This document shows, piece by piece, positions 15,998 to 56,316 of a stretch of 64,000 nucleotides of DNA. Origin of the DNA: Phycisphaerales bacterium (GTDB lineage: Bacteria; Planctomycetota; Phycisphaerae; Phycisphaerales; SM1A02); assembly GCA_022446795.1 (NCBI GenBank), contig JAKVBX010000018.1:1-64000 (forward strand). Direction: 5' to 3'. Both the position numbers and the translations under genes were made by a program. Under the pieces are notes generated by a model, which ran no database searches, was not told the origin of the DNA, and saw nothing but the letters and a program-made list of their open reading frames with translations. Position 1 is the first letter of the stretch. The number at the start of each line of letters is the position of its first letter.

Positions 15998-17239
15998 ATG
16001 TCCATGAGACGCCCCGGAATGCTGGCCGTGATCGGGCCCGGTCTGCTGGTTGCCGCCACCGGCGTCGGTGCTGGTGACCTCGCGACCGCCGGGTTCACTG
16101 GTGCGATGCTGGGTCCAGCGGTGGCCTGGGCAGTCGTGCTGGGCGCCGTGCTCAAGTACGTGCTGACCGAGGGTCTTGCCAGGTGGCAACTGGCCACCGG
16201 ACAGACCCTGCTGGAAGGTGTTGGTCAACGCATCGGACGATGGGCGCTGGTGCTCTTCCTGCTGTACATGATTCCGTTCTCGTACGTCGTTGGCGGCGCG
16301 CTCATCTCGGCCTGCGGCATCACGACGAATTCGATCTTTCCACTGGTGGCGGACGACCCACAGGTGGGCAAGCTGGTCTACGGCTCCATCATCAGCCTGA
16401 TCGGCCTGGCCATCGCCTGGATCGGTGGCTTTGCGATCTTCGAACGCATCATGGCCGTGTGCATCGCGATCATGTTCGTGGCGGTCCTGGTGACGGCGGT
16501 TCTGCTGGAACCAGATTGGGGCGCCGTTCTGCAGGGCGCCTTCGTTCCAACGATCCCGGACGCCACCAGCGAGGAGTTCACCTGGACACTTTCGCTGCTG
16601 GGTGGTGTTGGCGGCACCGTCACGCTGTTGTGCTATGGCTACTGGATTCACCAGCAGGGTCGGGAAGGGCCATCCTGGCTGTCGACCTGTCGGCTCGACC
16701 TGGTCATCGGCTACGTCTTCACCGGACTCTTCGGCATCGCGATGCTGCTGATCGCATCAGGTGCCAACATCAGTGCCACGGGAACCAACCTGATCGTCGA
16801 ACTGGCGGCGGGACTCGTGGAACCGCTGGGTGAGTGGGCGCGGTGGGTGTTTCTCATCGGTGCCTGGGCGGCGGTGACCAGCAGCCTTCTTGGCGTCTGG
16901 CAGGCGATTCCGATGCTGTTTACCGATGCGCTTCGCGGCGCCTGTGGACTCCCGCGGCTTGACGCTGATGAGCTGGTCAAGACCACCACATCGAGGATCT
17001 TCCTGGTCCTGCTGGCCATCCTGCCGGTGATCCAGGCGTGGCAGTCCTTCAAGGAAGCACAGAAGGTCTATGCCGTGCTCGGGGCGTTCTTCCTTCCCCT
17101 GCTGGCCATCGTCCTGCTCGTGCTCAACGGCCGCAAGCGGCTCGTGGGCAAGGGCTATCGCAATGGACCCGTGACCATCGGCATGCTGCTGCTGACCCTG
17201 GCGATCTTCGTCATCTACGGCTGGAACAAGCTGACCTGA
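15998..17239 (+). CDS. Nramp-family transporter lacking the canonical metal motifs
   Basis: 413 residues, 11-12 predicted transmembrane helices. The first helix carries GPGLLVAATGVGAGDLATA, which aligns with the Nramp metal helix but has GAGD where classical Mn2+/Fe2+ carriers have DPGN. The sixth helix region (GGVGGTVTLLCYGYWIHQQG) lacks the MPH motif. Nramp-related proteins with altered motifs include Mg2+ and other non-canonical carriers, so I call the fold but not the substrate. Starts at 15998 (MSMRRPGML) and 16004 are both possible. Confidence 0.8.
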   Translation: MSMRRPGMLAVIGPGLLVAATGVGAGDLATAGFTGAMLGPAVAWAVVLGAVLKYVLTEGLARWQLATGQTLLEGVGQRIGRWALVLFLLYMIPFSYVVGGALISACGITTNSIFPLVADDPQVGKLVYGSIISLIGLAIAWIGGFAIFERIMAVCIAIMFVAVLVTAVLLEPDWGAVLQGAFVPTIPDATSEEFTWTLSLLGGVGGTVTLLCYGYWIHQQGREGPSWLSTCRLDLVIGYVFTGLFGIAMLLIASGANISATGTNLIVELAAGLVEPLGEWARWVFLIGAWAAVTSSLLGVWQAIPMLFTDALRGACGLPRLDADELVKTTTSRIFLVLLAILPVIQAWQSFKEAQKVYAVLGAFFLPLLAIVLLVLNGRKRLVGKGYRNGPVTIGMLLLTLAIFVIYGWNKLT

Positions 17240-42505: not shown

Positions 42506-42949
42506 TCAGAAATCGAGAAACGCCTGGAAGCTCACGTCCTGCATGATCGAGTGGCAGGCGACTTCACAGTGTTGGCCCATGGCGGTGATGGCCCGTTGTC
42601 GGCCCACGGCGATGTGACGTTCCAGGGCGGCATTGGGATCGAACTGTTCGATGGTCATGGACAGCGGTGGCAGGTCGAAGTGCAGTCGCATCGCGAGCGA
42701 CTCCAGTCGCATCTGCAGGATGTCGACCTGTTCCTGCAGCCCGGTCTGTTCGGCGAACAGTTCCACCGGATCTTCGCCACGAAGCATGGCCTCGGCGGCC
42801 TGCTGGTCGGCGCGAAGCAACTGCTGCTGGAGATGATCGCGTTCGCGAAGCAGGGATCGGGCGTGATCCGGCATGGCCGAGATCGCCATCGCGGTTGAAC
42901 CGCACGCGACGAGACACCCAATGATGAGCCAGCGGTGAATTCGAATCAT
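42506..42949 (-). CDS. Small secreted helical protein, paralogue of 52966-53439
   Basis: 147 residues. A signal peptide (RWLIIGCLVACGSTAMA) is followed by a charged helical region. It contains QAAEAMLRGEDPVE at residues 50-63 and RLESLAMR at 81-88, then LP. The protein at 52966-53439 has QAAEAVAAGEDPVE and RLESMAIR with exactly the same 18-residue spacing, so they are paralogues. The C-terminus has two Cys (GQHCEVACHS). Unknown function, probably periplasmic and possibly oligomeric through its coiled coil. The ATG overlaps the upstream lipoprotein stop (ATGA). Confidence 0.7.
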   Translation of the reverse strand: MIRIHRWLIIGCLVACGSTAMAISAMPDHARSLLRERDHLQQQLLRADQQAAEAMLRGEDPVELFAEQTGLQEQVDILQMRLESLAMRLHFDLPPLSMTIEQFDPNAALERHIAVGRQRAITAMGQHCEVACHSIMQDVSFQAFLDF

Positions 42950-43341
42950 CGGGACACCTCCTGCGACGAGGCCGCGGACAAGGCGACGATGTCGATGCCC
43001 TCCGCCCTCGCCAGGGCAACCAGTTGCTGCTTGAGCGAGCGATCGCGGATGGCCAGCCAGGATCGGGCGGCAACCTCCGGCTGGCCGGAGTTCATGGCCT
43101 CGGCGCCGACCAGGACGAGTTCCAGGTCAGCGACCTTGCCGGCCTGTTCCAGGTCGCCAGTGAGATCATTGGCGTGATCGAGATGGCGCCGCGCGGCGGC
43201 GAAGTCCGAGGCCTGGATGGCCCGGCAACTGTCCACGAGGGCATCGCGGAACTGGTCGTGCTGACCAGCTTTCACATGGGTCGTCGAGGCGCAGCCGGCG
43301 AGCAGGCAGCCGGCCGCCAGGAAGATCAACAGTCGATGCAT
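42946..43341 (-). CDS. Small lipoprotein, paralogue of 54582-54965
   Basis: 131 residues with a lipobox (FLAAGCLLAGC, Cys17). The mature part is helical and TPR-like: AAARRHLDHANDL followed by GAEAMNSGQPEVAARSW (79-95). The lipoprotein at 54582-54965 has the matching GAEAMIDGDASAAAAAW (74-90) and 'QARSSLDEAGTL'. It is coupled by ATGA overlap to the small secreted gene downstream. The pair is the last in the long minus-strand run that begins with the sigma factor. Function unknown; lipid-anchored, probably to the outer membrane. Confidence 0.7.
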   Translation of the reverse strand: MHRLLIFLAAGCLLAGCASTTHVKAGQHDQFRDALVDSCRAIQASDFAAARRHLDHANDLTGDLEQAGKVADLELVLVGAEAMNSGQPEVAARSWLAIRDRSLKQQLVALARAEGIDIVALSAASSQEVSR

Positions 43342-43471
43342 GGGGGCGTCTCCTTCGGGTCAGGAGGGGTGCTGGGGGCACGTGGTTTCCCTCCACCACC
43401 GGGGACGGCCCCGGGTGGGTCGACTTGCAGGATTGGCCTGGGAATTTCGCCGGGACCGGCCCTGGAGGGGC

Positions 43472-44848
43472 CTATTCCGCGATTGCGGCGGCTGGTCGGG
43501 TGACGAAGTTGATCTCACGACAGGTCCAGTCGGGGTTGTCCAGGGGATCGGCCCCGGCCGTGCCGACCTGGGATTGGCGGGCCAGTTTGAGCAGTTCCTG
43601 TCGTCGATCATCGAAGGAGCCGGGAACGACCAGTGGCTCCGGCGTGAGGAAGGCCTTGATCCGGTTCAACCCATGGGGTGGCCGAACCGGGAAGGAGAAG
43701 TTCATGTCACCGGAGGGAACCGTGATGGACTCGCCGGCCCGCAGTTGAACCGAACGGGCCTGCGCATTGGGAACCAGGACCGTGACGTTGCCACTGGGGC
43801 CCACCGCAACCAGGGTGAGATACCCATCGATGCCGGCCCTGGCACGGATACGCAGTTCCTGGCCGTCCCGATAGACCGCCTGCCTGGGTTCAATCGACAA
43901 CTCAAGCGGAACGGGTGCGGCGCGGGGAACGGCACGAATGAGAGATTCGACGGTCCCGGGCGTCGCGCGATCATGCAGCGGAAGTGGCTGGGCCTCTTCA
44001 CCGGGGGGTGATCGCAGTCCCATGTCCATGGTGAGTTGTTGTGTGGCCATCACTGGTCCCTCCCCACTGTTCTGGAACGTGACGGCGCCACGGTGTCCAT
44101 CCACGATTTCACCGGTTGTCGAGTCGATGATTCGAGCGGTGAGCACCCACTCATCGGCGGTGGCTCGACCAACGGTGCCGGTCAGGAGGTACCGGGCATT
44201 CAGCAGCCGGCCGACGAAGAGACCGGTGCTGTCCTCGGTCGCATCGAGCTCGGCGAATTCCCGTGCTTCAATGAGCTTGGCGACATCCTCGCGTTCAACG
44301 AGTGTCACGTTGGGCGCATTGATCGCCGAGACCATCAGGAGCGAGATCAATCGCCCGATGCCGGCCTCCGGGTCGGGCCCCAGTTCCTTGAACGGAAGGA
44401 CGGCGAGCGTGATCTGCGAGGCATCGGTGTCCGTGTCGCCGTTGGCCGGTGGCTTGACCATCACCTTGACCTTTGCCGGAATGATCGGGGCGGAGAGCGC
44501 GATCCAGCATCGGTCCGCCGTGATCCCGGAGCGCTGCACCAGGCCGGGGCCGATTCGACCCTGCACCATGTCGTCGGTGATCGTCATTCCCGGGTGGGCC
44601 ATGGCGAGTCGACTGGCGATCTCCCAGGCCATGTCACGCTGTGCCCTGAGGCGAAGACGCGTCAACCAGTCCGCCTTCGGCGTCGTGCCGGTCGGAACCG
44701 CTTCGGAGGTCCAGGAGATGACCGTGTCGTCCACGATCTCGGCGCCGGACTCGCCGGCGGCCGTGAGTTGGGACGCATTCGACACGGCTGTGTCGATGGG
44801 CGTGGGCTCGATGAACCCCGTCAGCAATGAGAGCAGCAGCGCGATCAT
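43472..44848 (-). CDS. CsgG-like plus DUF4384-like secreted protein
   Basis: 458 residues. The short hydrophobic N-terminus (MIALLLSLLTGFIEP) is likely a signal peptide. Residues about 145-275 look like the CsgG/FlgO fold (ITLAVLPFKELGPDPEAGIGRL, VTLVEREDVAKLIEAREF, RYLLTGTVGRA). Residues about 310-430 match DUF4384 (YRDGQELRIRARAGIDGYLTLVAVGPSG ... VPSGDMNFSFPVRPPHGLNRIKAF). CsgG-like proteins form outer-membrane or periplasmic rings or pores for curli and flagella; DUF4384 often accompanies them. Starts 4 nt after the FlgT/CsgG-like gene. Confidence 0.75.
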   Translation of the reverse strand: MIALLLSLLTGFIEPTPIDTAVSNASQLTAAGESGAEIVDDTVISWTSEAVPTGTTPKADWLTRLRLRAQRDMAWEIASRLAMAHPGMTITDDMVQGRIGPGLVQRSGITADRCWIALSAPIIPAKVKVMVKPPANGDTDTDASQITLAVLPFKELGPDPEAGIGRLISLLMVSAINAPNVTLVEREDVAKLIEAREFAELDATEDSTGLFVGRLLNARYLLTGTVGRATADEWVLTARIIDSTTGEIVDGHRGAVTFQNSGEGPVMATQQLTMDMGLRSPPGEEAQPLPLHDRATPGTVESLIRAVPRAAPVPLELSIEPRQAVYRDGQELRIRARAGIDGYLTLVAVGPSGNVTVLVPNAQARSVQLRAGESITVPSGDMNFSFPVRPPHGLNRIKAFLTPEPLVVPGSFDDRRQELLKLARQSQVGTAGADPLDNPDWTCREINFVTRPAAAIAE

Positions 44849-44852
44849 GTCT

Positions 44853-47168
44853 TCAGTCCTTCTTCCTGGACCGGATGTAGTCCATCAACGATGCCTCGAT
44901 GGCCTCCCCCGCCTTGACCATGGCGAACCTGGTGGGTGACAGGGTGCGGTCCTCCCCTCGCCGCTGGGCGAGCTGAACGGAGTTCCAGTCGTTGCTGTAG
45001 TGGTCCATCCACTCGACGGCACCGGTCGAGATGTTGATGAGCCGCATCTCGAGGTCCACGGTGAGTTGTTGCCGGTTCTCGTACACGTCACGGAGCTTGA
45101 CGTACTGCCGCCACTTCTTGAACGTCAGGTCCTCCAGTGTGCCAACCAGGACGTAATCGGCCGTGAGCTCGCGACCGAACTTGAGGATCTCACGGTTGTC
45201 CGCACGCCCGTCCTGGATGCGGTCGAGCATTTCGGCACGTTTGCTGTCGAGTGCCCGCAGGTACTTCTCATCCAGGACCGTGAAGGTCCGGTCACGGACG
45301 AGATCACGATTGACGATGGCCGTGAAATAGTTCGCCACGCGGTTGTTCGAGATCCGCTGCTCGTCCGCCGGCAGTGAGATCTTCGCCACTCGGAGCGGCA
45401 GCACGGCGATCGTGGGCCGACCGCCCGCGCGCGGTGTGCTTGGATCAAACACTGGTACGTCAGCCCGGATGCGGACCGCGAAGGTGTCTCCATGCGCCCG
45501 TTCCGCGGCGTTCTCGGCCAACGGTCCCTCCGAGATGATGGCGTAGCTGCTCACCAGTCCACTGGACGTCGTTCGGATCGACTCGTTGGAGAGCGAGTCG
45601 GATGACGTGCGGCGATTCGCGCGGCCGTTGAAGTCCTCGATGGCATCCTTGTACTTCTGCGAGGCGATGGTCTCGCCATTGACCAGCGTTCCGTTGACCA
45701 TGGAGACCGCTTCCAGGAGCGCATTCTTGATGGCCAACTCGCGAGTGGCGCCGGTACCTGCCGCTTCGACGATGCGATTTCCGGCGCCCTGTTGCTGCGG
45801 TGCTGCTGGCGGTGCGCTGCCTGGCGGAACCGCGGAAGGCGCTGATGGTGGCGCGGGCATCTCCGCGGGAGGCGTGGGAGGTGCGGGCTGCTGGGTCGGG
45901 GTTCTCGGTGGAGCCGGTGCACTTGGCTGGCTGGGCGTGGCTTGCGGCGTGCCGCTGGGAACACTCGGGCCAGGCAGTCGTGCGGGCGGTGCAGCGGCGG
46001 GTTCACGTTCGATGCCGTGTACGAGCATGACGTACTGCCAGGTCCCGTCGGGGCTCTCCAGGGAGACGCTGTCGACACCCGGCGGTACGGCGCCGGACGC
46101 AACGGATCGACGGGTCGATTCGGTGGCCTGCTCCGACAGTCGCTGGGTCTCGGTATCACTTGTCCGGGCGAGGAGGTCATCCGTCTGCGACATGACTTCC
46201 TCGTATCGGGCATCAAGAACATCATCCTCGGCGATGGACTCTCCTTCGAGGATCGCGACCATCGCGCGTTCGGCTCGGAGTCGAGCGGTGCGTCGGGCAT
46301 TTTCCATCTCGACCTGTCGCAGTCGACCGGTTCGGCCGGGCGCGACGGTGTCGGCACCGAAGGCAATCCAGGCTCGCGTGCCATCGGCCGTCTCGAGCAG
46401 TCGCCCGCCCGTGGGTGGCACAACACCGGATCGAAGTTCCGCGATCATGATGTCGCGGGCATGGGCGAGGTTCCGGGCGCCGGCAATGCCGGAGCCTCGG
46501 GCCTGCGTGAGTCCCTGGGTGGCCGGGGTGGAGACCAGCGTGACCGTCACGCGGCCAGCCGAGGCGTCCTCGTCCAGTTCATACAGGACGGCTCCACGCA
46601 GCACGGCGCTGGCCGTGGAGGAGATTTCCTCCGTTCCTTCCCGGCGGGATTCGATGCCGCTGAGGGTCTCGGTATCCCGCGTGGTGAGTTCATCCGCCAG
46701 GCGTTCCTGCCCAGCGACGGACACGCCCTCGACGAATCTTGCCATGGCGGTCCTGGCGTTGAGCGATGCGGTCATCCAGGCCAGCCGCTGTTCGCGCAGT
46801 CGAAGTTGCGGATTCGCCAGTTCCGGATCCCACGAGGACGAACCGGTGGCGACAACGCCGAGTTGGCCGTCGATCTCGATCCAGGTGGCGCCGTCGGTTT
46901 CGACCGACTGCAGGTTTCGCGAGGCGGCGTTGATCGCATCCTGCGGGCTGGCCGCCTGTGTCACCGGACTGCTGAATCCCGGCGGCGTGACTTCCGTCAC
47001 CGCCTCGGGTTCCTGGATGGTCAGCGTCTCCTGTTCAACGACAGGATCGTTCAGCCCAGCCAGCACCGGCATGTGGAACTCCAGTCCCAGGTCAGCCATG
47101 GCCGTCATGGACGGCAGGGTGACGGCCAGGGCGAGCGAACAGGTTCTGAGGACGCGTGTGGGGATCAT
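44853..47168 (-). CDS. FlgT/CsgG-like multidomain periplasmic protein
   Basis: 771 residues from the ATG at 47168 with GGAG 9 nt upstream. A signal peptide (RVLRTCSLALAVTLPSMTAMA) is followed by an LPP20-like region (about 75-385), then a Pro/Ala-rich linker at 390-458. A second LPP20/FlgT-N-like domain (VEAAGTGATRELAIKNALLEAV) follows, and finally a CsgG-like domain (RPTIAVLPLRVAKI ... DYVLVGTLEDLTF ... LEMRLINISTGAVEWMDH). This order resembles FlgT of the sheathed-flagellum H ring with an added LPP20 half. No flagellar gene is in the window, so an envelope ring or scaffold role is inferred. Confidence 0.7.
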   Translation of the reverse strand: MIPTRVLRTCSLALAVTLPSMTAMADLGLEFHMPVLAGLNDPVVEQETLTIQEPEAVTEVTPPGFSSPVTQAASPQDAINAASRNLQSVETDGATWIEIDGQLGVVATGSSSWDPELANPQLRLREQRLAWMTASLNARTAMARFVEGVSVAGQERLADELTTRDTETLSGIESRREGTEEISSTASAVLRGAVLYELDEDASAGRVTVTLVSTPATQGLTQARGSGIAGARNLAHARDIMIAELRSGVVPPTGGRLLETADGTRAWIAFGADTVAPGRTGRLRQVEMENARRTARLRAERAMVAILEGESIAEDDVLDARYEEVMSQTDDLLARTSDTETQRLSEQATESTRRSVASGAVPPGVDSVSLESPDGTWQYVMLVHGIEREPAAAPPARLPGPSVPSGTPQATPSQPSAPAPPRTPTQQPAPPTPPAEMPAPPSAPSAVPPGSAPPAAPQQQGAGNRIVEAAGTGATRELAIKNALLEAVSMVNGTLVNGETIASQKYKDAIEDFNGRANRRTSSDSLSNESIRTTSSGLVSSYAIISEGPLAENAAERAHGDTFAVRIRADVPVFDPSTPRAGGRPTIAVLPLRVAKISLPADEQRISNNRVANYFTAIVNRDLVRDRTFTVLDEKYLRALDSKRAEMLDRIQDGRADNREILKFGRELTADYVLVGTLEDLTFKKWRQYVKLRDVYENRQQLTVDLEMRLINISTGAVEWMDHYSNDWNSVQLAQRRGEDRTLSPTRFAMVKAGEAIEASLMDYIRSRKKD

Positions 47169-47200
47169 GGATGTCGTCTCCGGGAGATCAGGCGCGAGGC

Positions 47201-47824
47201 TCAGAGGCCGCGAACGAACTGCTTGCTCATCAGGAACTGGTCTTCCCAGACGGTGTACTTGGCCTGGAGATCGATGAGCTCGCACTTGACGGCGTAGTCG
47301 TACTGTGTCGTCCGGCCCTGGTTGACCGGGATCCGATTGATCTGCATGTAGAGGCCCAGCGACGGCGCCTTGGCCTGGCCCGGCGGCGGAACCGTGGACT
47401 GGTCGTACTCGGCGGAATTCCGAAGCGACGTGATGTTCTGCGTCAGGCTGTCGGGCTTGGCGCCGGTGCCGCCGATGTCCCGGTTGACCACGGCCTGGCC
47501 GGAATTGACAAGGGTCTTCCGAATGGCGTTTTCCATGACGGTCTTGTCACGCGTGAACACGGGTTGATTGGTGTTGTTGTCCCAGTCCGCAATGGCGATG
47601 ACCACCGGTGTTCCGCCGGGACCCTGGTGCCGGTTGAGCACGCCGCTCTGGATCATGGAGTTCTTCATCCAGTTGGCGAACTGATCCCACTCGCCACCGG
47701 TGAGCCGGTTGGCGTTGTTGATGGGTTTCATCTGGCTGCCGGTCCGCGTCTGGGCGCAGCCGATCAGCATCATGGAAGCGAGCATCACGACAAGACATGC
47801 GGAAACGGGAAAGCGAGTAGACAT
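47201..47824 (-). CDS. LpoB-like penicillin-binding-protein activator lipoprotein
   Basis: 207 residues from the ATG at 47824 with AAGGAAG just upstream. The lipobox is VVMLASMMLIGC. The mature domain matches the LpoB fold: 'WMKNSMIQSGVL', 'DWDNNTNQPV', 'MENAIRKTLVNSGQAVVNRD', then 'GLYMQINRI'. In E. coli LpoB reaches from the outer membrane to switch on PBP1B peptidoglycan synthesis. The gene upstream encodes a YcfL-like protein, the same neighbour order as E. coli ycfL-lpoB, which supports the call. CsgG-like families are distantly related and could be an alternative. Confidence 0.78.
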   Translation of the reverse strand: MSTRFPVSACLVVMLASMMLIGCAQTRTGSQMKPINNANRLTGGEWDQFANWMKNSMIQSGVLNRHQGPGGTPVVIAIADWDNNTNQPVFTRDKTVMENAIRKTLVNSGQAVVNRDIGGTGAKPDSLTQNITSLRNSAEYDQSTVPPPGQAKAPSLGLYMQINRIPVNQGRTTQYDYAVKCELIDLQAKYTVWEDQFLMSKQFVRGL

Positions 47825-47856
47825 GTTTCTTCCTTCACGGATCACGAGAGGATGCA

Positions 47857-48258
47857 TCAACGCAGCGGCTTGATGGCGAAGCGGAAATCCTTCGCCTGTG
47901 CGCTACCGGCCGTTCCCGTGATGGATCGCATCTCACCGGCCTGGAGCGTGTACGTATTCCAGACGGTGCTGGACTCGTCAACCTGCATGCCCTGCCCGGA
48001 GAACCACTCGAAACGGGTCTGGATGTCCTTTGCGGAGGAAGACCGATTCAACAGGGTGACCTGGCCCTGGAGCAGGCCATTGATATCGCGGGCGAGAACG
48101 CCCTCCACCCGGATGTCATTGCGCAGCCCGGGATTCAAATCAATCCGGGAATAATCGACATTGGTCCGCCGGGGGTTGTTGGTCGAGACCGTGTTGACGC
48201 TCTTGCACGCTGCCAGGGGAAGCAGGAGCAGGCTGGCGGCGAGGACGAAACGGATCAT
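47857..48258 (-). CDS. YcfL-like (DUF1425) lipoprotein
   Basis: 133 residues from the ATG at 48258 with AGGAG 6 nt upstream. The lipobox is LLLLPLAAC. The beta domain 'GLLQGQVTLLNRSSSAKDIQTRFEWFSGQGM' and the C-terminal 'GTAGSAQAKDFRFAIKP' match the DUF1425/YcfL family. Function of the family is unknown; it is conserved next to lpoB. A 6-bp GC hairpin (48285-48300) lies 27 nt before the start. Confidence 0.72.
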   Translation of the reverse strand: MIRFVLAASLLLLPLAACKSVNTVSTNNPRRTNVDYSRIDLNPGLRNDIRVEGVLARDINGLLQGQVTLLNRSSSAKDIQTRFEWFSGQGMQVDESSTVWNTYTLQAGEMRSITGTAGSAQAKDFRFAIKPLR

Positions 48259-48467
48259 GAGGCGGACTCCTGGGCTGGGTCTACCGGGCCTGGGGGCCCG
48301 ATTCGTGAGGGTGATAGCAGGGACGTTCCACCAGGTCGGACTTGCAGAGGACCTCGGCGACGATTGAACGTACCGGACCAGTAGCCCATTGTCCCGCACG
48401 AGGGCCATTCAGCAAAAGCGGACCGGCTGCAGCCCTCGCAGATGGCTCCTGGGCGGCTCCTGGGCGA

Positions 48468-49451
48468 TCAGGCCTCGATCGCGGGGTCTGGTTGGCGGCC
48501 GGTCAGCAGCATCACGATCACGATGATGGCGACCACCCCTCCCACGCCTCCGACCACCCACAGGGCCCACCACAGGCCTGTTCGAATGAAGATCGTCACG
48601 TGTCGGCAGGACTGGGTAGTGCCTTGTCCGAGGTCCGCCACGATCTGCTGTGCGGTTCGCCAACCCCGGGCCAGCAGTCGTACCGGCTCGGCCGGCGATG
48701 CCCGGGTGACCGACTCGACCCCCTCGATGGCCAGCAGTGACGCCTTCACCGCATCCAGGTTCTCGACCTTTCCCCTGACATCGATTCGCACGAGGCCATC
48801 GCCAACGGCAAAGCCATACCAGTGCCGCAGGATCGGCGGGCCGACTTCTGATGCCAGTTGGGTCACCAGGATCTCGATGGCGCGATCCAGTGCCGCCTCA
48901 CGGGATTGCTGTCGCGACGATGAAGTGACATCGATACCGGGCAGTTCTTCACCCGTGAGCACATCGACGATCGTTGCCTGAAGGCTGCCACTGGCTTCCC
49001 AGGTCTCGACCTCATAGAGCATCGTGGGTCCATCGATGGCGACTTCCAATCGCCACTTCAGGTCATATCCACCATGTTGTCCCAGCAGGACCCGGGAGGC
49101 CGCCGCGGCATCACTGGTCTCCGCGTAGACCATGTCCGCTTCACGCTCCTGGTCGGACTGGAGTCGTTCACCATCAAGGACGTCAATACCCAGTGGTTCC
49201 AGGTCATTCGCCAGTTGGGCGACCAGGGTCGCCTGGAGGGGGTCACCGGGTCTCGGTGGCATGAGGACAACCTGAGGCTGACCACAGTCCTGGATCATCG
49301 TGTCGATGACGCCGATGGTTGGCGTCGCCCCGGACGGCCAGGCCTCCATGATCGCTGTTCTCAGGGTGACGGGATCGGGTGCGGCGGCAACCGATGGCAG
49401 GCCAATCGACAGCGAGAGAAGAAGCAGGCTGCCGGTTGACCTCGTGATCAT
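48468..49451 (-). CDS. Signal-peptide protein with C-terminal membrane anchor, unknown function
   Basis: 327 residues. An N-terminal signal (GSLLLLSLSIGLPSVAA) and one C-terminal transmembrane segment (WWALWVVGGVGGVVAIIVIVMLL) leave a periplasmic domain of about 260 residues. It contains 'PTIGVIDTMIQDCGQPQVVLMP', 'QATIVDVLTGEELPGIDVTSSSRQQ' and 'REAALDRAIEILVTQLA', a pattern reminiscent of CsgG/FlgO-type proteins that collect paralogous repeats. No family is assigned. The ATG overlaps the stop of the anti-sigma-like gene. Confidence 0.6.
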   Translation of the reverse strand: MITRSTGSLLLLSLSIGLPSVAAAPDPVTLRTAIMEAWPSGATPTIGVIDTMIQDCGQPQVVLMPPRPGDPLQATLVAQLANDLEPLGIDVLDGERLQSDQEREADMVYAETSDAAAASRVLLGQHGGYDLKWRLEVAIDGPTMLYEVETWEASGSLQATIVDVLTGEELPGIDVTSSSRQQSREAALDRAIEILVTQLASEVGPPILRHWYGFAVGDGLVRIDVRGKVENLDAVKASLLAIEGVESVTRASPAEPVRLLARGWRTAQQIVADLGQGTTQSCRHVTIFIRTGLWWALWVVGGVGGVVAIIVIVMLLTGRQPDPAIEA

Positions 49452-49978
49452 GGGCGTGTTTCCCGTCGTGGCCAGAAGGATCCGACCCCCAGCACCACCG
49501 CCAGCAGGAAGAGTCCGACGAAGACGGGATCACCGATGAGCGACGTTACCGGCGCGCCTGTCGGGTTCCCGAGTTGTTCAAGATACTCCGGTGCACCGGA
49601 GGAGGAATCCAGTACCTCGACGGATCGGTCGCTTGGTCCGCCACCGAGCCGGATGGCACTGATGGTCACCAGGCCGATCAGGCAGGCGACCCAGGCGGCC
49701 TGCATCACGAGTCGACCGGGGACAAACCGCGGTGCGGCGATGGAATCAGCCAGGTCCTGCTGAAGATCACGAAGCAAGGTGCCCAGGTCCGGGTCCGAGG
49801 CGATCCGCTTCAGGAGGTGGACACGTTCCTGTGGTGGCAGTTCATGTCCACGACCTTGCGCCAGAACGACGATGGCTTCCGGGTTGACATCGTCCCAGGA
49901 GTCACCCTCGTGTCGTCGCATGGCCTCCCGCACGGCGGTGGTGATGGTGTCGGTGTCGACAGGAGTGGCACTGTTCAT
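49448..49978 (-). CDS. Two-pass membrane protein, possible anti-sigma factor
   Basis: 176 residues from the ATG at 49978. The first about 75 residues are soluble and helical (ITTAVREAMRRHEGDSWDDVNPEAIVVLAQ) and would face the cytoplasm. Two transmembrane segments follow (LVMQAAWVACLIGLVTISAI and PVFVGLFLLAVVLGVGSFW). The ATG overlaps the sigma-factor stop by 4 nt. Cytoplasmic helices plus membrane helices directly after an ECF-type sigma gene is the classical anti-sigma arrangement, but the ZAS zinc motif is absent, so this is inference. Confidence 0.6.
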   Translation of the reverse strand: MNSATPVDTDTITTAVREAMRRHEGDSWDDVNPEAIVVLAQGRGHELPPQERVHLLKRIASDPDLGTLLRDLQQDLADSIAAPRFVPGRLVMQAAWVACLIGLVTISAIRLGGGPSDRSVEVLDSSSGAPEYLEQLGNPTGAPVTSLIGDPVFVGLFLLAVVLGVGSFWPRRETRP

Positions 49979-50796
49979 GTCGCTGGCTCCGAGAGAGGTC
50001 CGTCTTCCGGATCGCGCGGGGTCAGCTCGTCCCAGCACTGCCGCCATCCTCGATCCCACGCGGCCCGTGTCTCCGGGCTCCACTGCCCGGGGACCGCGTG
50101 TTGCACGTGGAGACGCAGTTGTTCCTCGGCCTTGCGAAGTTCACGCGAAGTCTGCCATGGGGACAGCCCAGCAACCTGGCCCGCATCGGCCTTGCCCAGT
50201 CCGTCGCGGTAGATCGCTGCCAGCAGGAACTGGTGGCGGGCCTCCAGCGTTTCGAAGGCCTTGATCACGGCCGCGGCCAGCACGTCTGCCAGTTCGCGCT
50301 GGCCACTGACGGTCGCGGGATCATCGCCACGTGCGACCTCGGCGGCGGCTTCGGCGGAGACCTGTCTCGGGCCGCGTTCCCGCCGCCGATGTCGATCGAT
50401 CGCGATGGTCCGTGCTGCGGCCAGGAAGTGCCACGGCAATCGCGTCAGGCCGCGGTAGCGGGCAATGTGCATCACGGGCTCACCGTCCTCGTTCGTGCCA
50501 TTCTCGGGATCGTCGCGCATCATTCGCGTGACCGCTTCGGACCAGAGGTCCTCGGGGTCCAGGTCGGCTCGTGGCGAGCGTTGCAGTCGACGAATGACCA
50601 TGTCGCGGTACGCCTCGTCAATGGCTGACCAGGCGGGGTTGATTCGATGCCCGGCGGCACCGGCCACGTAGAGATCGCTGGGATGAGTCGGCGTGGTCTC
50701 ACCCAGGTGCGTCTGGTAGGCGCCAAGCGGCCAGGTGACCCGCGGCCAGGCGGCCTGGGCTGCTTGCCAGAGTTGTCGAACTCGATCTGCGACCAC
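49975..50796 (-). CDS. ECF-like RNA polymerase sigma factor
   Basis: 273 residues from a GTG at 50796 with GGAGGT at 50810-50805 and an 8-nt spacer; the longer frame starting at 50880 would begin before that site. Region 2 is recognisable ('DLDPEDLWSEAVTRMM', 'LTRLPWHFLAAARTIAIDRHRRRE'). Region 4 has a helix-turn-helix (FETLEARHQFLLAAIYRDGLGKADAGQVAGLSPWQTSRELRKAEEQLR). It is atypical: a 90-residue N-terminal extension and a C-terminal tail (AWDRGWRQCWDEL). A TAGACT box at 50845-50840 may be its promoter. Probably directs transcription of this envelope locus or its own operon. Confidence 0.72.
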   Translation of the reverse strand: MVADRVRQLWQAAQAAWPRVTWPLGAYQTHLGETTPTHPSDLYVAGAAGHRINPAWSAIDEAYRDMVIRRLQRSPRADLDPEDLWSEAVTRMMRDDPENGTNEDGEPVMHIARYRGLTRLPWHFLAAARTIAIDRHRRRERGPRQVSAEAAAEVARGDDPATVSGQRELADVLAAAVIKAFETLEARHQFLLAAIYRDGLGKADAGQVAGLSPWQTSRELRKAEEQLRLHVQHAVPGQWSPETRAAWDRGWRQCWDELTPRDPEDGPLSEPAT

Positions 50797-50897
50797 GCGT
50801 GGCGACCTCCCAAGGCAGTGATCCTGATGGTCAGTGTCCAGTCTAGGGCACTCCGGGACCGGCCTTGGGAAGTCTGCCACACGTCGTGTCCCCGGGC

Positions 50898-51413
50898 TCA
50901 GGAAGACGGCTTGGCATCGGCAGTCCCCTGCCGACGACTACCGGGCTTCATGGTTCGGTTGAGTCGCTCAAGGGCGCCGCTGACGCGGGACAGGCCTGCA
51001 GCGAGCTTGTCGAAGTCGACGACCTGTCGCCCGACCGCCGGCGGCAGCGGTGCAGCGGCTTCGTTGGTCACCTCGGCCGCCTGGGGGATCGTGGCCGGCT
51101 CGGACCGGGGCGGCGAGGCCGCGGATGCCACCGCAGCGGCTGCGGGCGCCGCCGAGGCACTCTCGATGATGTCGAACATGGCGGCCGGTTCGGTCCGGGT
51201 GGTCCACTGCTGGTTCTCAGGCAGCATGATCTCGACGGCTTCCACGTCCTGGTCACGACTTTCCAGTCGATCCAGGCGGTTCACCACGTCCTCGAGCAGG
51301 CCACGGACTTCCCCGGCTTGATCGATCAGTGAGTGCGCCCGATCGGGCATGAATGTGACGACGACGGCCACGATGATGACGCCGACGAAGGCGCCAAGGA
51401 AAAAGCGTCTCAT
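50898..51413 (-). CDS. Single-pass membrane protein with helical periplasmic stalk
   Basis: 171 residues. The N-terminal transmembrane segment (FFLGAFVGVIIVAVVVTFM) is followed by a charged coiled coil (IDQAGEVRGLLEDVVNRLDRLESRDQDVEAVEI), an Ala/Pro-rich spacer and a C-terminal helical piece. The ATG overlaps the stop of the TonB-like gene. Unknown function; last gene of the ExbB/ExbD run. Confidence 0.6.
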   Translation of the reverse strand: MRRFFLGAFVGVIIVAVVVTFMPDRAHSLIDQAGEVRGLLEDVVNRLDRLESRDQDVEAVEIMLPENQQWTTRTEPAAMFDIIESASAAPAAAAVASAASPPRSEPATIPQAAEVTNEAAAPLPPAVGRQVVDFDKLAAGLSRVSGALERLNRTMKPGSRRQGTADAKPSS

Positions 51414-52192
51414 GAGGACCTCCTTTCGAAACCGCTGATGGCGAAGTCAACGCGTCCGGCGTCGATGCGGAACCGACCATAGAAGGCGCGGATCCTCGAC
51501 GACTCGACGCCTGCTTCGGCAGCGACTCGAATCTGTTGGGTTCGAAGACTGTGTTCCAGGGCGACGGGAAGCAGGACAGCCAGTCGCTCCCCGCCGGTAC
51601 GAAGGGATGAGGCCCGTGCAAAGGCGGGCGTTGAATCCACGATACGAACGCGGTTGGAGTAGCCGGACAGATCCGAGGGCGCTTCCTCGAGTCGGTGCCA
51701 GCCTCCATCGGCCGAGGCCACTTCACCAGTGATTCCACCGGTGGCGCCGAGCAGGACCAGCCGCATATCGGCTGCCTCGACGATCGAGCGGGCCTGTTGC
51801 GCCGTTCCCCAGTCGATGCGCAGCGAGGGCCTGGCCGTACCGGTGCGGTCACCACTGAAGTCACCTCGTTGTTCCAGCGTGTTTCGCTGCGGGGTAGCGG
51901 TTCGGGCGAGCGGCGCAGCGGTTGAGGCCTGTTCAACCGGGTCCGGCGGCCGTGGCGCGGGCGGCGCCGGGACCGTCGGGGTGGGCGTTGCCACGGGCGG
52001 CGGTGCCGGTGCGTCCTGGGAGGCCGGCGCCGGTTCGGTCTCGGTCGGCGCCGGCTCGGGCAGTTCCCGCATGGCAATGCGAGCCGCAACGGCGGGCGCG
52101 TTCGATGATGATGTGTCACTCGTGGGCCTCAACAGCGCCCAGTGCAGGCCGATGGCCAGGACGAGTCCGATGATGATGGCGGGACGAGACAT
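51410..52192 (-). CDS. TonB-like inner-membrane-anchored periplasmic protein
   Basis: 260 residues. One N-terminal anchor (SRPAIIIGLVLAIGLHWALL) is followed by a Pro/Ala/Thr-rich stretch (residues about 45-90) and a folded C-terminal domain (LRIDWGTAQQARSIVEAADMRLVLLGA ... RFRIDAGRVDFAISGF). The layout and its place right after the ExbD-like gene match TonB/TolA, which carry force from an ExbBD motor to the outer membrane. The C-terminal sequence is not a recognisable TonB_C domain. The ATG shares one base with the ExbD stop (TGATG). Confidence 0.6.
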   Translation of the reverse strand: MSRPAIIIGLVLAIGLHWALLRPTSDTSSSNAPAVAARIAMRELPEPAPTETEPAPASQDAPAPPPVATPTPTVPAPPAPRPPDPVEQASTAAPLARTATPQRNTLEQRGDFSGDRTGTARPSLRIDWGTAQQARSIVEAADMRLVLLGATGGITGEVASADGGWHRLEEAPSDLSGYSNRVRIVDSTPAFARASSLRTGGERLAVLLPVALEHSLRTQQIRVAAEAGVESSRIRAFYGRFRIDAGRVDFAISGFERRSS

Positions 52193-52548
52193 CAGGTTCC
52201 TCCTCCGGGTTGAACACCCAGTTCGACGCGGTACCCGGCCGCCCGGGCCTCTCGCCAGACGTCGATGATGCGGTGATGCGTGATGTCCTCGGTCGCCGGG
52301 ACGATCAGGAGGGTCGATACCGGCAGGTTGAGTTCATCCAGTCGAACACCAGTGGCATCGACCGTGGTCAGTTTCGTTTCCGAAACGGAGACCAGGGTGA
52401 GCTCATCACCATCCAGCGGGCGGGTGCCTCCGGCTCCAGCCTCTGCGGGCTCGGCCAGCAATCCCCGCAGCGGGATCGACTGCGCCAACAGCACGATGGT
52501 GCTGCACAGCAGGATGAAGAGCAGGTCGACGAATCCACGACTGATCAT
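52192..52548 (-). CDS. ExbD/TolR-like proton-channel subunit
   Basis: 118 residues. The N-terminal segment ISRGFVDLLFILLCSTIVLLAQ holds Asp8 inside the transmembrane helix, matching the essential Asp of ExbD and TolR. The C-terminal domain (LPVSTLLIVPATEDITHHRIIDVWREARAAG) has the ExbD fold. It would pair with the ExbB-like protein to use proton flow. The ATG overlaps the ExbB-like stop by 4 nt. Confidence 0.82.
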   Translation of the reverse strand: MISRGFVDLLFILLCSTIVLLAQSIPLRGLLAEPAEAGAGGTRPLDGDELTLVSVSETKLTTVDATGVRLDELNLPVSTLLIVPATEDITHHRIIDVWREARAAGYRVELGVQPGGGT

Positions 52549-52955
52549 GTGGCTACCGCTTCCTTCACGGGTTTGGCTGTCGGTGTCAGCCAGTCCAGGA
52601 GATGACCGGCGACGGCGGCGACCACCGCGATGCCGATCCCGAAGATCGTCGTCGTGCAGGCGACGGCCAGTCCGCTGCCGATGGCTTCGGCGTCAATGCC
52701 GCCATCGAGCAGTCGGAAGCTCTGGACGACACCCAGCACCGTGCCGAGCAGTCCGAGGGCCGGGGGGACTTCCGCGAAGAAGGGAAGGACCCGCCGGTGG
52801 GCGATGAGCCGACCCTCGGGGAGTCGCCAACCCAGCACCAGGTGCCGGATGCCGACCGACCAGAGTCTCTCGACGAGGACCGCGGCCAGGAGAATCGAGC
52901 ACACGAGAAGCGGCCACATGAGGGGGCCGCCGGCATCAAACCAGGGCCGAAGCAT
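52545..52955 (-). CDS. ExbB/TolQ/MotA-like proton-channel subunit (short)
   Basis: 136 residues from the ATG at 52955 with AGGAGG 6-7 nt upstream. After a first helix (PLMWPLLVCSILLAAVLVERLW), the family core 'ALGLLGTVLGVVQSF ... GSGLAVACTTTIFGIGIAVVAAVAGHLLDWL' is intact. It is shorter than ExbB/TolQ, mainly in the cytoplasmic loop. It lies 10 nt after the small secreted protein gene. TolQ and MotA remain possible relatives. Confidence 0.82.
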   Translation of the reverse strand: MLRPWFDAGGPLMWPLLVCSILLAAVLVERLWSVGIRHLVLGWRLPEGRLIAHRRVLPFFAEVPPALGLLGTVLGVVQSFRLLDGGIDAEAIGSGLAVACTTTIFGIGIAVVAAVAGHLLDWLTPTAKPVKEAVAT

Positions 52956-52965
52956 GACAGTCCTC

Positions 52966-53439
52966 CTATTCCGCCGTAATCGAGCTGAAGTCGAGTCGGG
53001 CCAGCAGCCGCATCGTGCGGCGTGCCACGAGTCGGTTCGTCCGTTCCTCCCCGGCTCGGAACATGGCCCGGGCGCGGGATTCCGTGTCCGCGTTCTCGGC
53101 ATTCACGTCACCGGGCGCGGGAATATCGGGCAACGCCAGACCGTGGCGAATGGCCATGGATTCCAGCCGGAGCTGTACCAGGTCCAGTTCGTCCTGCACG
53201 GCCGTCTGCTGGGCGTGGATCTCGACCGGGTCTTCACCTGCGGCGACGGCTTCAGCAGCCTGGTTGTCCAGCTTGGCGAGCTGGCGCACCAGCCGCGTTC
53301 GCTGTGAACAGGTCTTCTTGAACTCCGCCTTGACGGCTGGCGTGGGGCCCGTATCCCCCGCCGCCGCGGGTGCCGCGGGGAGCAGCACTGCGACGGCGAG
53401 GAGGAGACTTGAAACAAGCTTGAGAGAGATGTGAGTCAT
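52966..53439 (-). CDS. Small secreted helical protein, paralogue of 42506-42949
   Basis: 157 residues from the ATG at 53439, with GGAG 6 nt upstream. The signal peptide (LKLVSSLLLAVAVLLPAAPAAA) is followed by a coiled coil with QAAEAVAAGEDPVE (60-73) and RLESMAIR (91-98). These match the same elements, with the same 18-residue spacing, in the protein at 42506-42949. Compared with that paralogue it has a longer N-terminal part and an extra C-terminal helix. Probably periplasmic. It directly precedes the ExbB-like gene. Confidence 0.7.
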   Translation of the reverse strand: MTHISLKLVSSLLLAVAVLLPAAPAAAGDTGPTPAVKAEFKKTCSQRTRLVRQLAKLDNQAAEAVAAGEDPVEIHAQQTAVQDELDLVQLRLESMAIRHGLALPDIPAPGDVNAENADTESRARAMFRAGEERTNRLVARRTMRLLARLDFSSITAE

Positions 53440-53496
53440 GTTGTTCTCCAATCAGGAGTCACGGGATGAGCAGTGGTGCACGATCTCGTGGAGGGT

Positions 53497-54585
53497 TCAG
53501 TTGTCGACACGCTCGATGCGTGCGGCGAGTTCGTCATCGATGCTCGTTGAGACGACACCTTGCATGTCATCACCATCGACGGGCTGGATGGCGTCCACGT
53601 TGGCTTCCAGTTCGAACATGCTCTCGTTGAGCGCTTCCTCGACGATGCCGTTGAAGCCCGACAGCTGTTCCTGGAGTCCACGCATGCCCTCGACGAAGCT
53701 CGCCATTCCGGAGGCGCCGTCGCCGACACCGTTGACGGCACCAAGCAGATCGTTCACACCGTCGATGGTCTGCATGAGGGAGAGGTACTCCCGCAGCTGT
53801 CCGGCGGTGGCTTCGAACTGCGCGAACAGGATCTCCGAGCCCATCAGCACCTGTTGGTGGGCCAGTGCAGCCTGCTCGAGCACCGTGAGGATGTTGGTCC
53901 ACAGGCGACGCTGGTCCGGCGACATGCGTTCAGCGGCATGCTTCACGCGGGCCAGGCTGCGGATCGTGCGGTAATGGGCGACGAGTCGCTTCTTCCGGAT
54001 CGGATCGTTCGTTTCGGCGATGCGGGCGGCCACACCGTCCAGCAGCCGCTCGGTCGTGGGCGAGAAACCAGCTTCCGAGGTGGCCGGCTGTGATCCATTT
54101 CGTGCCACGGCCCGCGCCAGGCGGGAACGGACCTCTGCGATCTGGGCCGTGAGTTCGCTCTGGGCATCCCACATCGGCTCCAGAACGGCATCGCGGACGT
54201 CCAGGACGCCGTCGATGGCGATGACGCTTGCTTCCACGGCTTCCCGGGTCCGACCCTCTTCCATGAGCGTGACGGCACGATCAACCTCGTCCACGAAGAC
54301 GACGAAGCTCGCGTTCATCTCGGTCGCCAGTGGATTGACCGAGGACTGGAGCGTGTCGACGACATGCTCGAAGTCATATCCGTCGAAGGGCGAGGCCGGT
54401 TGGCTGAGCGCCGGCTGGCTTCGGGGCGCGGCGGCCGTCGGCGTGACGCTGGCGGCCGGTGCGGCAGGAATGGGTTGGGCCAGCGGGTTCGCATCCTGTG
54501 CCAGGGCCGCGGCCGTGAAGGCCAACGGTATCAGCACGGGGACACACCGCAGCGTTCGTGAGGTGGTGAAGACGTTCTTCGTCAT
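53497..54585 (-). CDS. Secreted helical protein of unknown function
   Basis: 362 residues with a signal peptide (CVPVLIPLAFTAAALAQ) and an Ala/Pro-rich linker, then long amphipathic helices (about 75-330) with the conserved-looking stretch 'LARVKHAAERMSPDQRRLWTNILTVLEQ'. The C-terminus is acidic. No family recognised. The ATG overlaps the lipoprotein stop (ATGA). In the paralogous pair at 42.5-43.3 kb no such gene stands between lipoprotein and small secreted protein, so this looks like an insertion into the module. Confidence 0.65.
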   Translation of the reverse strand: MTKNVFTTSRTLRCVPVLIPLAFTAAALAQDANPLAQPIPAAPAASVTPTAAAPRSQPALSQPASPFDGYDFEHVVDTLQSSVNPLATEMNASFVVFVDEVDRAVTLMEEGRTREAVEASVIAIDGVLDVRDAVLEPMWDAQSELTAQIAEVRSRLARAVARNGSQPATSEAGFSPTTERLLDGVAARIAETNDPIRKKRLVAHYRTIRSLARVKHAAERMSPDQRRLWTNILTVLEQAALAHQQVLMGSEILFAQFEATAGQLREYLSLMQTIDGVNDLLGAVNGVGDGASGMASFVEGMRGLQEQLSGFNGIVEEALNESMFELEANVDAIQPVDGDDMQGVVSTSIDDELAARIERVDN

Positions 54586-54965
54586 CGGGTGTCCTCCTGG
54601 TTGTTCGAGGTCCGGGGTTGTGAATCAAGGTCGAGTCCCATCGCCCCGGCCTCACGACGGAGCTGTCGCCGAAGCCCGGCGTCCTCGACACTCGACCAGG
54701 CGGCGGCCGCGGCGGAGGCATCACCGTCGATCATGGCTTCGGCACCATCGACAACGGCATTCAGGTCGTGGACCTTCTGTCGTTCACCGTCGCCGGATGC
54801 CAGGGTCCCGGCCTCGTCAAGTGACGAGCGAGCCTGGTCCAGTCGACCATGTGAGATGTCGTTGGTGGCGCGGCGGAGGGATGTGTTGAAGGCTTCGCTG
54901 GATTGACATCCGGTCATCAGCAGGGCCGCGGCGAGAGGGATCAAGGCGCAAGACAGGCGTGACAT
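54582..54965 (-). CDS. Small lipoprotein, paralogue of 42946-43341
   Basis: 127 residues from the ATG at 54965 with GAGGAG 7-8 nt upstream. The lipobox is LAAALLMTGC (Cys20). The mature helical part has QARSSLDEAGTL and GAEAMIDGDASAAAAAW (74-90), matching the lipoprotein at 42946-43341. First gene of the ExbB/ExbD run. Unknown function. Confidence 0.7.
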   Translation of the reverse strand: MSRLSCALIPLAAALLMTGCQSSEAFNTSLRRATNDISHGRLDQARSSLDEAGTLASGDGERQKVHDLNAVVDGAEAMIDGDASAAAAAWSSVEDAGLRRQLRREAGAMGLDLDSQPRTSNNQEDTR

Positions 54966-55087: not shown

Positions 55088-56197
55088 TCAGGGCTGCAGG
55101 CGGATGATCCCACCGGTCCGGCAGCGGCCGTCCAGTTCCGGGAGGGGCCTGATCAGCGGGTCGCCAGTGCTGGCCAAGGCGGCGGAAACGAAGGCCGCGG
55201 CAGCCGATGTTCCATCGACCAACTGGGGGCGATCGGCTCGGGCCTGGATCTCGATGACGCCGCCAGGTGCGGCGACATCGACAGTTCGTTGTCCCCAGTT
55301 CGTCCCATTCACCAGGCGACCTGCAGCGGTCGTTCGGACGGCAGGTTGGCCCGCCGGACCGATCGCCATGACCGCGATGACGTTTGGACGATCGACACAG
55401 GCCGGAAAGAACGGGTGGTCGTCGATGTTGCGACCATCGTTGCCTGCGGCACAGACGACGGGAATGCCTGCAGCCTCCAGCTGACCCCACACGGGATCGC
55501 TGGCCAGCCCCGCGAGTTCCTCGGCCGACACGTCAACCCCGGCGCTGATGTTGATGATGTCGGCCCCGGCCTGCAGGGCGTGTCGCAGCCCGGCGAGAAT
55601 CAACTCCGGCGTGGCTCGAGGTGTTCGCCAGGCCGGACCGCTGCCGCCGGCGGCCACGATGGGGATCAACTCGACGGGTGATGAGGCGAGCGCACCAAGT
55701 GGTGCCACGGGACCGACGGGTCGATTTGCGATGATGGAGGCCACCATGTTGCCGTGGTGGAATCCATCACGGTGCGCAGACCACAGCGGCTTGTCCGGTT
55801 CCACCAGGTTGATGCCTTCGGTGAAGGCATGCTTCAGACCTGGTGCATCCACGTCGAAGCTCTCATCGAGAAGGGCGATTCGCACGGGTGGCGTGACGAG
55901 GTTCTCCTGCCAACCGATGTCGACACCGGGATGGAACGTGTTCTGGAGCCCCCATTGGACTGGCGTGGGTGTTTTCCGAATCGGTCCATCAGCACCGACG
56001 AGGGTGCCCGTGGTGGGCGGGTTCGCGGCGACGATTGCTTCGAAGGAAGCCTCCACGTCGATACGGGCATCACGGACGGCATCGGGAACGGGTACCGGCC
56101 CCTCGGCGGGCGAGTCCGAGCATCCGGCGACCAGAATCCAGGCCGCCAGCGTGGCCAGCAGGACAGTGGGTCGGCGAACCAGGCAGGCGGTGTCCAC
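55088..56197 (-). CDS. Subtilisin-like (S8) serine protease lipoprotein
   Basis: 369 residues from the GTG at 56197 with GGAG 6 nt upstream. The lipobox is [14 protein letters not shown] (Cys26). The catalytic triad is readable: Asp111 in IALLDESFD, His148 in [11 protein letters not shown], and Ser in [10 protein letters not shown], with the oxyanion Asn in VVCAAGND. The fold is therefore probably active and lipid-anchored outside the cytoplasm. There is no obvious propeptide beyond about 80 residues. It sits upstream of the envelope locus on the same strand, with a 122-nt gap, and could process its secreted members. Confidence 0.85.
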
Positions 56198-56316
56198 AGT
56201 ACGCTCCAATGGGAGAGGCGAATGACCCGGCGGTTGATCCCCCGGCCGGGGAACCGTACCCTGCTGCGTTCCCCGGGGGAAGGCTGGATCTCCCAGCACA
56301 CGGGGAGGAGGTCAAC

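Follow-up and report, generated by a model that had tools for sequence, protein, structure and literature searches.

A conserved ExbB/ExbD operon with a putative force transducer and a duplicated lipoprotein partner pair in Phycisphaerales

The window, which is the whole stretch of 64,000 nucleotides that was analysed, contains one co-directional gene series with a conserved core set of six genes, B–g53–A–ExbB–ExbD–Tx, and a second copy of the B–A pair at its far end. The reading that we favour, with a little more than even confidence, is that the locus encodes a proton-driven force-transducing system of the Tol/Ton type together with a duplicated B–A partner set, envelope maintenance being its likeliest role. 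We found such a system nowhere described. This agrees with the sequence-only reading, which knew of no described system with this set of genes: neither the window proteins A, B, g53 and Tx nor other members of their families have a convincing match in Pfam.

Table 1. Genes of the co-directional series, listed from 56200 downwards.
Gene	Product	Coordinates	Strand	Remarks
S8	S8 subtilase with lipobox-like signal (ILVAGC)	55088..56200	-	Pfam Peptidase_S8 2.6e-19; start approximate; upstream neighbour of B2
B2	Small lipoprotein, helical-hairpin (TPR-like) pattern	54582..54965	-	First core-operon gene
g53	Secreted all-helical 362-aa protein	53497..54585	-	Missing from the second copy
A2	Small secreted coiled protein	52966..53439	-	
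ExbB	ExbB/TolQ-type proton-channel subunit, minimal form of ~136 aa	52545..52955	-	MotA_ExbB 7.5e-14, over cut-off
ExbD	ExbD/TolR-type subunit, one membrane helix, conserved Asp (F-V-D-L-L-F)	52192..52548	-	
Tx	Putative force transducer, TonB/TolA layout	51410..52192	-	
g50	Membrane-anchored coiled protein	50898..51413	-	Homologues found in genus only
Sigma	ECF-type sigma factor	49975..50880	-	sigma70-ECF TIGR02937 9.4e-9, below its cut-off
Anti-sigma	Probable anti-sigma factor, two hydrophobic segments	49448..49978	-	Overlaps sigma gene; assigned from position and sequence
g48	Envelope protein, signal peptide and C-terminal membrane helix	48468..49451	-	Conserved after anti-sigma gene
YcfL	YcfL-family lipoprotein (DUF1425)	47857..48258	-	Pfam 6.7e-17
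LpoB	LpoB-family lipoprotein	47201..47824	-	Pfam 1.8e-17
LpoB/CsgG-type	Large secreted protein, LpoB/CsgG-type domain at its end	44853..47168	-	LpoB 3.3e-7
FlgO–DUF4384	FlgO-like + DUF4384 protein	43472..44848	-	DUF4384 5.1e-18
B1	Derived lipoprotein copy	42946..43341	-	
A1	Derived secreted coiled protein copy	42506..42949	-	4-base overlap with B1

The four small open reading frames singled out by the sequence-only reading lie on the minus strand at the coordinates given, and so does every gene from 56200 down to 42506 in the order of Table 1, and the motifs quoted for them (QAAEA..GEDPVE, RLES(L/M)A(M/I)R and GAEAM) are found as quoted. The two pairs occupy opposite ends of one co-directional 12.5-kb series with a largest internal gap of 209 bases, before YcfL. 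Gaps of 122 and 130 bases precede B2 and B1, and elsewhere the genes overlap or are separated by small gaps. The ExbB/ExbD run passes co-directionally into the sigma run with a gap of 17 bases to the longest sigma open reading frame, the true start of which is probably located downstream. Two close operons carrying the same two-part module had been proposed. The shared module is confirmed but the division into separate operons is not: since all genes lie on a common strand with small gaps, the locus probably consists of a few linked transcription units. An alignment, within the genus, of the regions upstream of B1, B2, sigma and YcfL revealed no convincing shared promoter motif.

Both small-protein pairs are indeed paralogous. 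Local alignment of the mature parts scores 161 for A1/A2 (36% identity) compared with a mean of 30, a standard deviation of 5 and a maximum of 58 for 2000 shuffles, and 116 for B1/B2 (38% identity) compared with a mean of 31, a standard deviation of 6 and a maximum of 71 for the same number of shuffles. Cross-comparisons of A with B score below the shuffle maximum. For A as well as for B, a profile built from either pair member finds its partner. In all four of the four system-bearing genomes of the genus the two pairs lie about 10–12 kb apart, such that their co-localization is conserved in the genus.

ExbB is of the minimal type, a short three-helix form in which the GLLGT and TT..G motifs, including the pore Thr, are conserved, and the membrane Asp of ExbD is present in 17 of 17 homologues. 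No Pfam model matched the ExbD of the window, and its homologues in L019 and L035 match Pfam ExbD weakly, below the cut-off. The membrane helix of Tx contains a His (residue 17 in the window protein) in 16 of 17 homologues, preceded at position -4 by Ser in most of them and by Ala in the genus of the window. In TonB, Ser and His stand at this same spacing. The Ser/His pair of Tx agrees with the Ser-His portion of SHLS, the motif described for the docking of TonB and TolA onto their motors (PMC12204202). The helix of Tx is followed by a proline-rich linker and then by a C-terminal domain that is predicted with a pLDDT of ~95. The TonB_C, TonB_2 and TolA models gave no match in 15 Tx members at E<=0.05. 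A Foldseek search of the PDB with the Tx fold returned nothing at E<=0.001 and the best VIA-align Z score was 2.6, which is no proof of a new fold. A weak NCBIfam match of Tx to the gliding protein GltG lies mainly over the proline-rich linker, and this assignment was rejected.

For the accessory proteins, PDB sequence searches using the A, B and g53 profiles, like that with Tx, gave nothing meaningful. The predicted model of g53 is only moderately confident (pLDDT 63), and a fold search with it retrieved nothing beyond coiled coils and helical bundles of a generic kind, alpha-pore toxins and BAR domains among them, with Z scores usual for helical proteins. Some members of the B family show weak HemY_N/TPR_21 matches.

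In the mechanism that we propose, ExbB and ExbD of the core operon would form a proton motor onto which Tx docks via the His of its membrane helix. Tx would span the periplasm with its proline-rich stretch and pull on targets with its C-terminal domain. Lipoprotein B, which probably resides in the outer membrane, would associate with Tx together with g53 and A as its periplasmic and outer-membrane partners, and these three would replace TolB, Pal and CpoB or a TonB-dependent receptor. The duplicated B1–A1 pair, placed beside LpoB/CsgG-type genes and after a FlgO–DUF4384 gene that probably represents half of an ancestral fusion protein, may act as a second lipoprotein–periplasmic partner set. 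The adjoining sigma/anti-sigma pair probably controls expression, and the likeliest job would be coordination of the envelope layers through outer-membrane tethering or constriction. One trans-envelope machine with two assemblies had been suggested previously; a proton-driven trans-envelope system is plausible, while we infer the two assemblies from gene position only.

The core operon is well conserved in relatives. B, g53 and A keep their order and strand in all of the 20 loci that have sufficient sequence, and 17 of the 20 loci reaching far enough continue with ExbB–ExbD, plus Tx where it is still on the contig. The exceptions are L021 and L024, which have no adjacent ExbB/ExbD and no detectable Tx, and L039, in which no motor genes were found. 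Because these three keep B–g53–A without detected motor genes nearby, the accessory proteins may also act without the motor. Directly after A, L021 (8938–9477) and L024 (9203–9829) carry a membrane-anchored coiled protein with a g50-like layout and no adjacent motor. The constant B–g53–A order further means that g53 is part of the ancestral set and that the B1–A1 pair, which lacks it, is a derived copy; the earlier idea that the 362-residue gene was inserted into one copy is therefore rejected. Within the genus g53 is the most conserved accessory gene, with 87% identity to L017 and a dN/dS of ~0.07.

Three groups of loci can be distinguished. Group I, the genus of the window (the window itself, L017 = L025, L026 and L027), has the full gene series, and whole-genome searches find both A copies in the source genome, in G084 and in the genomes of L026 (G512) and L027 (G513). 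The system is absent from G530, another genome of the same genus. In L026 no LpoB is present between YcfL and the CsgG-type gene (16304–16733). Group II (L028, L032, L034, L035, L037 and L039) has a single B–g53–A–ExbB–ExbD–Tx set, after which come sigma, anti-sigma and, in most cases, g48. Group III (L018–L024, L038, L040 and L041) has the core set alone. A single pair accompanies the core operon in the complete genome of strain ZRK32 (L030, CP066225). Sigma orthologues occur in ten loci, that of L032 matching regions 2 and 4 at ~1e-4, below the cut-off, and the anti-sigma gene is kept after sigma in every sigma-bearing locus. In about half of the loci no sigma factor, LpoB or CsgG gene adjoins the core set. 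Co-occurrence of the pairs with their neighbours thus holds for ExbB/ExbD but not for LpoB, the CsgG-like genes and sigma, which fall outside the core. L041 (4643–5563) and G528 (C433) contain a second g53 homologue, divergent or truncated, just upstream of the core operon. In trees of A and of B, L032, L033 and L039, labelled as Singulisphaera, a proteobacterium and Planctomycetaceae, cluster with Phycisphaerales; these MAG labels are probably wrong.

The system is rare and patchy within Phycisphaerales, since g53, Tx and A occur in few of the sampled genomes. Of 400 genomes of the order, 20 carry g53 and 20 carry Tx, with 18 carrying the two together (hypergeometric 5e-27); the 19 genomes with strong A matches all contain g53. 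When 151 genomes of the order were searched with a profile, A was identified in nine. A g53 profile scan of the contig collection yielded 17 loci, and a scan of this collection with a two-sequence A alignment gave no matches. A sample of 392 genomes from the phylum gave a single g53 match outside the order, and this was marginal (7.5e-4). G576 has two copies each of g53, A and Tx on contigs C17 and C44, representing either a true second operon or mixed strains.

Where the sequence allows it to be seen, a fusion gene directly precedes B in Group II. Its product of 722–735 amino acids combines FlgO/CsgG-like, DUF4384 and S8 domains, and the fusion was found in L032, L037, L039 and L029. Alignment identifies the FlgO–DUF4384 protein of the window as its first half and the S8 protein as its second half; in the genus the S8 half lies before B2 and the FlgO–DUF4384 half before B1. 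This fusion of a protease to FlgO–DUF4384, along with the CsgG/LpoB/FlgO-type domains in several neighbouring genes and fusions, would also suit a system in which the proton motor powers export or the assembly of a surface structure via CsgG/FlgO-type outer-membrane proteins, the subtilase maturing the cargo. Such motors can power secretion (SiiAB, cited in PMC12204202). However, the roughly half of loci that consist of B–g53–A–ExbB–ExbD–Tx alone have no CsgG-type gene nearby, and the matches in the window are LpoB/FlgO-like, with CsgG itself under the cut-off. We therefore consider an export role unlikely and prefer envelope maintenance.

The presence of LpoB and YcfL in the gene run raises another alternative, in which B is a LpoP-like helical lipoprotein that, with LpoB, adjusts peptidoglycan synthesis to the motor state, in the manner of CpoB in E. 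coli. CpoB connects Tol with PBP1B–LpoB (PMC4458516), and in Pseudomonas PBP1B is regulated by LpoP, a small lipoprotein with TPRs (PMC7267771). Against this, no class A PBP glycosyltransferase (PF00912) was matched in the source genome or in G084 of the same genus, and among 121 genomes sampled across the order it was not found in 113 (it occurs in eight). L026 moreover lacks LpoB here and keeps the remainder. Control of peptidoglycan synthesis by the motor is thus improbable. As no class A PBP glycosyltransferase was found in the source genome, the LpoB-family protein is probably not a PBP1B activator as in E. coli.

Ton-like nutrient uptake without a classical receptor would fit the ExbB/ExbD pair and a transducer with a proline-rich linker, a TonB-like layout, and the TonB2 system of Vibrio requires two additional proteins, TtpB2 and the TPR protein TtpD2 (PMC6957404). 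Yet the source genome has no match to the TonB-dependent receptor family (PF00593), the operon contains no transport gene or TonB_C domain, and neither A nor g53 matches DUF3450, which makes uptake very unlikely. TolB (TolB_N, PF04052) is likewise without a match in this genome, the E. coli control being positive. With neither a TonB-dependent receptor nor TolB, the partner slot of the transducer in our preferred Tol/Ton-type system is therefore open. The source genome is 96% complete, such that these single absences are likely rather than certain.

No Pal is encoded in the operon, and the three OmpA matches of the genome are all outside the contig of the window. Elsewhere in this genome, on contig C45, L060 and L061 encode two lipoproteins with coiled-coil and OmpA domains that are possible outer-membrane-to-cell-wall tethers; no tol genes occur in the short stretches read. 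L047 (G000:C77:18500-28500) has consecutive genes for a vWA protein, a TPR-like protein, ExbB and two ExbD subunits, which matches the clusters of vWA force transducers that have been reported in PVC bacteria (PMC12204202). In L048 (G000:C8:31000-41000), ExbB and two ExbD genes lie between proteins of 383 and 824 amino acids without a Pfam match, and this is possibly another motor-driven system.

The simplest history of the locus would be that the block reaching from the fusion gene to A was duplicated and then underwent complementary loss, in which S8 was kept at one copy and FlgO–DUF4384 at the other, and g53 disappeared from the second. In the trees A1/B1 form one clade (100/100) that is weakly joined with A2 and Group II, and the test does not reject the two copies as sisters (p-AU 0.22). 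A1/B1 are under purifying selection. That B1–A1 is a decaying leftover without a function of its own is the least probable of the alternatives: the pair is restricted to one genus and diverges faster (window versus L017 identities of 60/55% for A1/B1 and 81/68% for A2/B2), but its frames are intact and overlapping in the genus genomes having the locus, its dN/dS is ~0.2 (a rough value, with dS near saturation) and A1 retains every residue that is invariant in the A family, namely R47, D58, Q78, R91, R98, G130 and R133 in A2 numbering.

Few kinds of inner-to-outer-membrane energy carriers are known. This operon of six genes, which combines a conserved motor with a transducer whose end domain is unassigned and with three protein families that have no entry in Pfam, would extend the list. 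Cell division in Phycisphaerales is by binary fission, even though FtsZ is missing from Planctomycetes (PMC5147048), and the operon makes outer-membrane attachment and constriction in such cells testable. This should be of clear interest for envelope biologists. Tentatively, and with rather less than even confidence, we suggest that Tx may represent a further transducer class in addition to TonB/TolA and the vWA type. Such a class would have a C-terminal fold and a lipoprotein–helical partner complex of its own, would take the Tol-Pal role in planctomycetes without TolB and class A PBPs, and would have diversified into two alternative outer assemblies in one genus.

Compared with Tol-Pal (TolQRA–TolB–Pal–CpoB), the locus shares a proton motor, a three-domain transducer with a membrane-helix His, and lipoprotein and periplasmic partners in one operon. 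It differs in that the genome has no TolB_N, B has no OmpA domain, the C-terminal domain of Tx matches no TolA/TonB model and g53 and A match no family. The TonB2 operon of Vibrio (TtpB–TtpC–ExbB2–ExbD2–TonB2–TtpD) similarly joins ExbB, ExbD and a transducer to extra accessory proteins, one of them with TPRs, whereas TtpC, a DUF3450 match, a TonB_C domain and a genomic TonB-dependent receptor are all lacking here. An LpoB-family protein near a Tol-like motor operon recalls LpoB–CpoB–PBP1B of E. coli (PMC4458516), but no class A PBP glycosyltransferase was found in this genome and LpoB is absent from most core-operon loci. From the same phylum come the vWA-type transducers of PVC bacteria, reported in planctomycetes as a new class with a TonB-like layout and a non-TonB/TolA C-terminal domain (PMC12204202). 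They have the same layout as Tx and adjoining tolQ/tolR-like genes, but Tx has no vWA match and other partners, and the source genome has a separate vWA-type cluster. Tx appears to be a further transducer type that is distinct from the vWA type.
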